The notes under the pieces: model-generated | The model's input: the letters and a program-made list of their open reading frames with translations, nothing else | What the model was told of the DNA's origin: nothing | The model's database searches: none | Assembly: GCA_019637265.1 (NCBI GenBank) | Contig: JAHBVY010000006.1 | Span: forward strand, 1 to 64,000 | Direction: 5' to 3' | Source: Polyangiaceae bacterium | GTDB taxonomy: Bacteria > Myxococcota_A > Polyangia > Polyangiales > Polyangiaceae | Length of the DNA stretch: 64,000 nucleotides | Made by a program: the position numbers and the translations under genes | Shown: one piece after another, positions 19,970 through 61,293 of the stretch | Numbering within the stretch: the stretch's first letter is position 1 | Layout: each line of letters starts with the position of its first letter

Positions 19970-20000
19970 AGCACGACAACGGTAGCCCGTTCGTCGTGCT
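19970..20000. repeat. REP-like hairpin between mutH and the radical SAM gene
   Basis: AGCACGACAACGG and CCGTTCGTCGTGCT pair over a TAGC loop with a single bulge. The arm core CGACGAACGG/CCGTTCGTCG recurs in the hairpin at 59478. No T-run follows. The GTG at 19996 lies inside the 3' arm, which argues for a later start of the next gene. Confidence 0.6.
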
Positions 20001-20013
20001 AGAGTGGGTAGGC

Positions 20014-58630: not shown

Positions 58631-59479
58631 ATGATGGCGCTCGGGATGCTGTTGGCGGTGGCCGTGGGGCTCTTGCTCGGGATGCTCGGCGGCGGCGGTT
58701 CCATCTTGGCGGTGCCGATCCTGGTGTACGTGATGGGGCTCGGCGCCAAGCAGGCGGTGGCCACCAGCTTGATCGTGGTGGCGATCACGAGCGCGGTGGG
58801 CGCGGTGCAGCACGGACGCACGGGGAGCGTTCGTTGGCGCGTGGGGTTTGGCTTCGGCGCCGCGAGCATGGTCGGGGCTTACGGAGGAGGTCGGGTGGCA
58901 GCCTACCTGCCGGGCACGGTCATCCTCGCGCTGTTCGGGGTGATGCTGCTCGCCACCGCGCTCGCGATGCTGGTGCGCCGCGAGCGGAGCGAGGGATCGC
59001 GTGAGCCGCATCGCCGTTCGGCGTGGTGGATCCCGGTGGAGGGGCTCGTGGTGGGCGCGGTGACGGGGCTGGTGGGCGCGGGTGGCGGCTTCCTGGTGGT
59101 GCCGGCGCTGATCGTCTTGGGTGGCCTCGGCGTGAAGGAGGCGATCGGCACCTCGCTGCTCGTCATCACGCTGAAGTCGGCCGCGGGGGCCGTCGGTTAC
59201 CTTGGCCACGTGGAAATGGATTGGGCGGTCGCGCTCGGGTTCTCTTCGGCGGCGGTGGTGGGCCTCGTGATCGGCGCGCGGCTCGCGGAGCGGCTGCCGG
59301 CCCAGGTGCTCACGCGGGGCTTCGGTGGCTTCGTGCTCCTGGTGGGGGCGAGCCTCAGCGCGGCGGAGCTGGTGCGGGCTGGGCTCGTCGGTTGGCCCGC
59401 GGCGCTGGTGCTCGGCGTGGCCGCGGTGGGTTTGGTGCTGGTCGTCGCGGCGCGGCTCACGCGGCGCGCCGCGGCCTAG
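58631..59479 (+). CDS. TauE/SafE (TSUP) sulfite/organosulfonate exporter
   Basis: A 282-residue membrane protein with about eight helices in two similar halves: LGMLGGGGSILAVPILVYVMGLGAKQAVATSLIVVAITSAVGA and TGLVGAGGGFLVVPALIVLGGLGVKEAIGTSLLVITLKSAAGA. These GGGGS/GAGGGF repeats are the TSUP signature. It likely exports sulfite made by the divergent persulfide dioxygenase pathway. GAGGTG precedes the ATG. Its stop codon is inside a 15-bp hairpin. Confidence 0.9.
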   Translation: MMALGMLLAVAVGLLLGMLGGGGSILAVPILVYVMGLGAKQAVATSLIVVAITSAVGAVQHGRTGSVRWRVGFGFGAASMVGAYGGGRVAAYLPGTVILALFGVMLLATALAMLVRRERSEGSREPHRRSAWWIPVEGLVVGAVTGLVGAGGGFLVVPALIVLGGLGVKEAIGTSLLVITLKSAAGAVGYLGHVEMDWAVALGFSSAAVVGLVIGARLAERLPAQVLTRGFGGFVLLVGASLSAAELVRAGLVGWPAALVLGVAAVGLVLVVAARLTRRAAA

Positions 59480-59509
59480 GACGACGAACGGTTTACCGTT
59501 CGTCGTCCT
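59478..59509. terminator. Perfect 15-bp hairpin overlapping the TSUP stop
   Basis: AGGACGACGAACGGT and ACCGTTCGTCGTCCT with a TT loop. It shares the CGACGAACGG/CCGTTCGTCG core with the hairpin at 19970, so it is a REP-like repeat that probably also terminates transcription. No T-run follows. Confidence 0.65.
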
Positions 59510-59520
59510 CAAATCAGCAA

Positions 59521-59634
59521 CTAGAGCGCCGAGAAGGGAAGCAGCGCCGAGCAGAGGACCAGGGAAACCGTGCCCTCGCCCCGCATGGGAGCGGTTTCCC
59601 TGGTCCGTCTGGCGGCAAACTGATCGCCGCTCTA
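59521..59634. ncRNA. 114-nt highly structured element (structured RNA or MITE-like repeat)
   Basis: Outer arms CTAGAGCG (59521-59528) and CGCTCTAG (59627-59634); inner perfect 15-bp arms GGACCAGGGAAACCG (59556-59570) and CGGTTTCCCTGGTCC (59592-59606) around a 21-base loop; further partial pairing (GCGCCGAGCAG with CTGGCGGC) lies between. The ends are also TIR-like: CTAGAGCG(C/G)CGA on both sides. It has no coding capacity. It could be a small RNA, a mobile palindromic element, or an mRNA leader 80 bases before the next ATG. Confidence 0.55.
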
Positions 59635-59715
59635 GGGGGGTGTGTTTCCAGGGCGAGATGACGCACCCGGCGGAACGGAGTTCACAGCAGGCGACGCTTC
59701 TCCTAAAGAGGGAGG

Positions 59716-61293
59716 ATGCGCGCGTTGGGGATTGGGTCAGTCCGCCTGGTGGGGCGCGCGGCGCTCATCGTCGCCTGCCTCTCGGCAGGGGCGTCGTGGC
59801 GAGCGTCGGCCGAGGCTTGCGTCACGGCGAACGTGGGCGCCACGGGGCCGGAGCCGGCGTGGGTCGTGCTGGGGGAGAGCGAGCTGCCGCAGCACCCGCT
59901 GTCCCTCGACTTGGGGCGCTGCGCGCGGCTCACGCTGTTTGGTTCCGCGCGGATGCGGGTCGAGCGCGTGCCGGAGCTCCACTACGCGGCGCCTCCGGTC
60001 TCGCAGCCACAGGTGGTGGGGGAGCCGCGCCCCGCTTCGTTGGTGCCCGAGCCGCTCACGCGGGTCGGCGCGTCCTTCGATTCGGGTCGGCGCTTCGGGG
60101 ACTTCGTGGTCAGTGCGCTTTACGAGCACGAGCTGGTGAGCGGGCTGCGTGGCCACACGGTGCCGCCGGAGCAGGGGGGTTACCCGCGTGAGGTCCGTTC
60201 GGCTGACGTGAGCGCGGAGCCGCGCCGCGCGTATGGGCGGTTCGCGCTCGGCTCGGTGGTGGGGCTCCAGCTCGGGTTCGACACCAGCCATTTCGGCCTG
60301 GGGCTGGTGGAGAACGACGGCGCGCACGATCCAGCGCCAGGCGCTGCGTCGTTCGCGGATCCGCGCGGGGGCGATCGGGTGCTCGAGGCGCGGCTGTTCA
60401 CCGGGCCGGTGGGGGACGTGGGCTTCTCGAGCTACGTCGCGCTCCAGAGCACGCGTGGCCAGCTGGGTGAGGAAGCGCGGCTCTTGGGGGGCGCGCGCCT
60501 CGGGGTGGATGACATCGACTGGCTCGGCGTGCAGCTGAGCGCGCAGGGGGTGAGCGTGGATGAGGTCGGTGAGGACTACGACCCACGATCGGGTCACAGG
60601 CATCATCGCCTCGGCGTGGCGGGCTCTTACGCGTTCGATTTCGGCGCGGAGCTGCTCTCGATCGAGGCGGAGGTCGCGCGGGAGTGGGGCACGCGGTCGC
60701 CTGCGGGGCGTGCCCTCAGCGCGCACGGCGCGGCGGCGCGCGCGACGCTCAGCGCGGGGCGGCTCACGGTAGGGCTCACCACCTTGTTCGCCAGTGGGGA
60801 CTCCGAACCGACGCGCGGGGAGCGCACGGCGTTCATGGCAGACGCGAACTTCGATCAAGGGCTCCTACTGTTTCGGCGGGTACAAGCGGTTCAGTCAGCG
60901 GGACGGACCACCTCGCAAGGGGTGGCGGGGATTCGAGAGGGTGGTACGGGCGGCGGCGCGAGCAACGCGTTCACGCTGTTCCCGCGGGTCGGTTACCGGC
61001 TGACGACCGGGCTCGATGCGTATGCTGGGGTGCTGTTCGCCTTCGCCGTCACGGCGCCCGTCGCGCCCGATGCGCCTCGTCGCGGGCCGTTCGGCGCGGA
61101 GCCCGGCGGCTACTGGGGGACTGAGTACGATGTCGGCGCGCGCCTGCGCGTGCTCGCTTGGGGCAGCTTGCTCACGCTGGGCGCCGAGGCGGGGGTGCTC
61201 GACCCAGGCAGCGCGCTCGAGGGCAGCCCGGCGGTGCCCGGCGCCGGTGAGGTGGCCGCCCTGGCGCGCGGCTTCGCGAACTTCGATTGGTAG
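59716..61293 (+). CDS. Outer-membrane-type beta-barrel protein
   Basis: A 525-residue exported protein with signal peptide (SVRLVGRAALIVACLSAGASWRASA). The N-terminal 90 residues form a small periplasmic part with a Cys pair (ACVTANV, GRCARLTLF). From about residue 115 alternating amphipathic strands dominate (RFALGSVVGLQLGFDTSHFGLGLVEN, GLDAYAGVLFAFAVTAPV) and the chain ends in FANFDW, a terminal aromatic as in outer-membrane barrels. No specific family is recognised; alginate-export-like porins are the nearest style. Confidence 0.7.
   Translation: MRALGIGSVRLVGRAALIVACLSAGASWRASAEACVTANVGATGPEPAWVVLGESELPQHPLSLDLGRCARLTLFGSARMRVERVPELHYAAPPVSQPQVVGEPRPASLVPEPLTRVGASFDSGRRFGDFVVSALYEHELVSGLRGHTVPPEQGGYPREVRSADVSAEPRRAYGRFALGSVVGLQLGFDTSHFGLGLVENDGAHDPAPGAASFADPRGGDRVLEARLFTGPVGDVGFSSYVALQSTRGQLGEEARLLGGARLGVDDIDWLGVQLSAQGVSVDEVGEDYDPRSGHRHHRLGVAGSYAFDFGAELLSIEAEVAREWGTRSPAGRALSAHGAAARATLSAGRLTVGLTTLFASGDSEPTRGERTAFMADANFDQGLLLFRRVQAVQSAGRTTSQGVAGIREGGTGGGASNAFTLFPRVGYRLTTGLDAYAGVLFAFAVTAPVAPDAPRRGPFGAEPGGYWGTEYDVGARLRVLAWGSLLTLGAEAGVLDPGSALEGSPAVPGAGEVAALARGFANFDW

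Follow-up and report, generated by a model that had tools for sequence, protein, structure and literature searches.

A probable IS1182-type MITE with CTAG borders and two hairpins in a Polyangiaceae genome

Bacterial MITEs (RUP, NEMIS, ERIC, Nezha and others) are non-coding elements of 70–300 bp with terminal inverted repeats (TIRs) of 15–30 bp and a robust secondary structure, and they are mobilised through their TIRs by a transposase (PMC3733652). The element analyzed here lies in a 64,000-nt stretch of DNA, termed the window, and is set apart from RUP, NEMIS, ERIC and Nezha, going by their descriptions, by different ends, a CTAG target, an IS1182-type parent and a distribution specific to one order. 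The IS1182 family of insertion sequences (IS) resembles it through full-length elements that possess the same kind of ends and encode transposases scoring above the NCBIfam IS1182 cut-off, whereas the window element itself carries no gene. IS1272, which has been assigned to the IS1182 family, is reported to insert by replacing stem-loops and to leave no target duplication (PMC5678879), in contrast to the related IS described below, in which CTAG is duplicated. We are confident that the window element belongs, as a MITE presumably mobilised in trans, to an IS1182-family insertion sequence whose insertion duplicates the 4-bp target CTAG. It is ordinary in kind, yet a search of the open-access literature for an earlier report of this family, or for MITEs in Sorangium or Myxococcus, yielded nothing relevant.

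A sequence-only reading of the window had described a 114-nt unit starting at 59521, consisting of a perfect 15-bp inner stem with a 21-base loop enclosed by 8-bp terminal arms. The inner stem, GGACCAGGGAAACCG (59556–59570) paired with CGGTTTCCCTGGTCC (59592–59606), is indeed perfect and encloses 21 nt, giving a main hairpin at 59556–59606 on the forward strand. The outer arms are likewise real, with CTAGAGCG at 59521–59528 and its complement CGCTCTAG at 59628–59635, and are prolonged imperfectly to 12 bp; the nested repeat hence ends at 59635 and measures 115 nt (59521–59635, forward strand). The extent of the element had to be revised, as alignment of 29 full copies with their flanks placed the left border at 59476, 45 bp to the left of the proposed start. 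The conserved unit thus spans 160 bp from CTAG to CTAG (59476–59635, forward strand), which is too short to encode a transposase. Within it, the left CTAG (59476–59479) is followed by a second hairpin that had been overlooked, AGGACGACGAACGGT (59478–59492) paired with ACCGTTCGTCGTCCT (59495–59509), whose 15-bp arms are perfect; then come a linker, CAAATCAGCAA, and the nested block, which comprises an inner TIR-like copy of CTAGAGCG, the main hairpin and the right TIR. The left TIR (59480–59495, forward strand) is diverged and lies folded on itself within this first hairpin (59478–59509, forward strand), and the right TIR (59616–59631, reverse strand) precedes the right CTAG (59632–59635). Counting CTAG, 14 of the 20 bases of the left end agree with the right end.

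When the window's own genome (G000; 5.7 Mb, 98.5% complete) was searched, the element turned up at about 40 dispersed places, not all of them complete, and identity with the window copy was 74–95%; the check for further genomic copies was thus positive. Among the 29 full copies the borders were sharp and the flanking bases unrelated, the mean pairwise identity was 84% (minimum 71%), and the terminal tetranucleotides were CTAG in most cases and had been substituted independently in the others. Other copies were truncated or carried internal deletions. At two loci, L053 and L031, head-to-tail copies share a single CTAG-like junction tetranucleotide (CAAG and CCAG, respectively), as expected if one copy had used the end of another as its target. 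The window also holds a lone hairpin, AGCACGACAACGGTAGCCCGTTCGTCGTGCT (19970–20002), which has CTAG at its end and resembles hairpin 1 on the other strand; it may be what is left of a further copy.

Transposase genes were found in related genomes on elements whose ends are of the same kind as those of the window copy. A 609-bp element in genome G153 encodes the first part of a transposase (PF05598), and this fragment served as the query for full-length elements. These were detected in G093 (1737 bp, three copies, each at its own site, plus diverged ones) and in G173 (1778 bp, two copies), in both cases bounded by ends of the type seen in the MITEs. The encoded proteins of 539 and 567 amino acids both contain PF05598 and PF13751 and score 290.2 and 306.1 bits on the IS1182 model NF033551, for which the NCBIfam cut-off is 270 bits. 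If CTAG is included, the right end of the window element shares 18 of 20 positions with the right TIR of the 609-bp element; it matches the ends of the full-length IS at 14–17 of 20. The left end is more diverged: it agrees with the ends of the IS and of the 609-bp element at 11–14 of 20 positions, and with the left ends of three transposase-bearing elements at 14 of 20; for the left TIR the agreement is 11–15 of 20. An IS1182-type transposase gene was not detected in G000, nor in G046, the genome with the most copies, and no partner of the window's exact subfamily came to light.

Two of the full-length IS insertions in G093 could be compared with sister genomes in which the site is uninterrupted. 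When the flanks were joined by a single CTAG, they aligned without gaps at 92–94% identity, straight through an intact CTAG. Since the empty sites contain one CTAG and the occupied sites two, CTAG is the target and becomes duplicated; by these alignments the tetranucleotide is best described as duplicated target and not as part of the TIR. The MITE sites of G093 are compatible with this pattern. At one site the flanks joined by one CTAG matched the length of the orthologue, and at others the joined flanks restored a reading frame or a stop codon on reading the alignments, with orthologues that had diverged from an exact CTAG. For the G000 copies, matches to the flanks in eight related genomes were one-sided or diverged and provided no informative empty site. 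The target-site duplication at the CTAG ends is therefore established for the related IS, and for both CTAG copies of the window element we infer it from the family. As a separate observation, locus L225 (G086:C1:118300-118800), which is orthologous to the G093 MITE site L180, contains a different CTAG-bounded insert of about 155 bp, whose ends are unlike the TIRs of the window element.

Of the 183 genomes of the order, 84 contained the right end (at most two mismatches); about 35 of them had at least five matches, and G046 had the most with about 790. A reversed control pattern gave 0–2 matches per genome, and one or two right-end matches are consequently not evidence of the element. Many of the end matches in G046 lie some 60–250 bases from contig ends; the MITE thus probably breaks the assembly, making the copy numbers lower bounds. 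Most of the related elements measure 140–190 bp and have inverted ends of the type CTAGAGC..GGTTG. In public genomes, an exact right-end variant occurred in metagenome-assembled genomes (MAGs) labelled Deltaproteobacteria (SZUA-265), Myxococcales and Sorangium sp., among which the whole two-hairpin element was seen only at SZUA-265 loci. The plasmid collection that we searched contained no match to the element. Eight MITEs of 160 bp in G093, a genome that has the IS, were 99.8% identical on average. This contrasts with the diverged copies of G000 and its lack of a detected IS1182 gene, and suggests recent MITE activity in G093 and, judging from sequence divergence, stranded copies in G000 that no longer move.

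At the window locus, a TauE/SafE family gene of 282 amino acids (58631–59479, forward strand; PF01925, E = 3.6e-54) has its stop codon (TAG, 59477–59479) within the left CTAG. Downstream lies an ORF of 525 amino acids (59716–61293) without a Pfam match. By a rule combining ORFs with third-position G+C, copies were assigned to probable stop codons in 7 of 29 cases in G000 and in 8 of 15 in G093, and the other CTAG sites of the window, which served as background, in 7 of 35. Stop-codon targeting beyond the CTAG rule is accordingly not supported in G000, where the rule alone accounts for these copies; the proportion in G093 is suggestive of targeting, with a background that was measured in another genome. 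CTAG itself is rarer in the window than a Markov model predicts (43 versus 72).

Covariation, which had been named as a check on a structured RNA, was present in both hairpins. Over 28 copies, 97.5% of the cells pair and 11 pairs have changed on both sides, where shuffling leads one to expect 6.2; in 500 shuffles this value was never reached, a count that is not a probability because the copies are related. The signal was abolished when partner columns were slid. Changes on both sides affected 3 of 13 consensus pairs in hairpin 1 and 7 of 18 in the helix of the main hairpin. Two hairpins in a comparable arrangement, formed by other stem sequences, were predicted in G046 and in the MAG SZUA-265. 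In palindromic DNA, one arm can be copied from the other during replication (quasi-palindrome correction). The covariation could thus reflect selection on RNA, selection on a DNA hairpin or self-correction of the palindrome, and the data fit all three. The idea that the element is primarily a structured RNA in the service of the gene downstream, one of the options of the sequence-only reading, is not supported, given that the copies adjoin unrelated genes and that Rfam returned nothing at gathering score (the only hit was RF02796 with 24.1 bits versus 47.4). More generally, the element might be a terminator, an mRNA 3′-end stabiliser or a small RNA selected as such, with incidental dispersal. 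The covariation, the recurrence of the layout in other genera with different stem sequences and the location of some copies directly at stop codons speak for this explanation; we consider it very unlikely in view of the transposon borders and target duplication, the unrelated neighbouring genes, the missing Rfam match, the ability of palindromic arms to correct each other and a stop-codon rate in G000 equal to that of other CTAG sites. The hairpins of the MITE may nevertheless play a secondary role once transcribed. It is conceivable, though we rather doubt it, that the two-hairpin fold, which compensatory changes have preserved and which is seen in three lineages, is itself selected: it could be a 3′-end or terminator module carried to stop codons by a transposase with specificity for CTAG, or a DNA substrate whose folded form the transposase recognises.

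A CTAG next to a hairpin at either end, tandem copies with a CTAG in common and conserved folds would also suit a REP/BIME-like palindromic repeat, which a Y1 (HUH) transposase, either IS200/IS605-like or RAYT-like, would spread as single-stranded DNA and without target duplication. Like REP/BIME sequences with their RAYT, the window family combines a tetranucleotide next to hairpins with multicopy occurrence and occasional tandem arrangement. Unlike them, it has inverted ends, a CTAG duplication and a DDE-type relative, and the Y1 transposase (PF01797) is absent from G000; G046 has one Y1 match and G028 has several, all situated away from any element end. With ends of the same kind on DDE-transposase elements that duplicate CTAG, this route appears highly improbable. 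A chance cluster of inverted repeats has negligible probability. Folded as a single strand, the segment 59511–59644 reached –72.6 kcal/mol, as opposed to –52.0 (sd 4.1) for 200 dinucleotide shuffles of the same segment (z = –5.1), none of which was as good, and the roughly 40 copies refute an accidental origin outright. The earlier judgement that the structure is far beyond chance was thus well founded.

Its suggestion that this is a small mobile element whose ends resemble TIRs is supported by the dispersed copies, their clean borders, the ends held in common with IS1182-type elements and the single-CTAG empty sites of the IS. As is characteristic of MITEs, the window element is short, multicopy and free of an internal transposase gene, shares its TIRs with an autonomous element and has a target duplication of fixed length, the latter taken from the family. 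For its mobilisation in trans, a DDE transposase supplied by a full-length relative would bind the TIRs of about 16 bp just inside CTAG, and insertion would proceed at CTAG with a 4-nt staggered cut, duplicating these 4 bp. The hairpins would arise because the left TIR pairs with its own neighbour and the inner TIR-like copy pairs with the right end.

Taken as such, the element belongs to an order-wide MITE family that is sometimes very abundant and whose IS1182-type relatives have been identified. The single-CTAG empty sites demonstrate a target-duplicating mode of insertion in a family that counts IS1272, reported to be non-duplicating, among its members. Under the CTAG rule, insertion at a CTAG that contains a TAG stop codon would leave the end of the gene intact.
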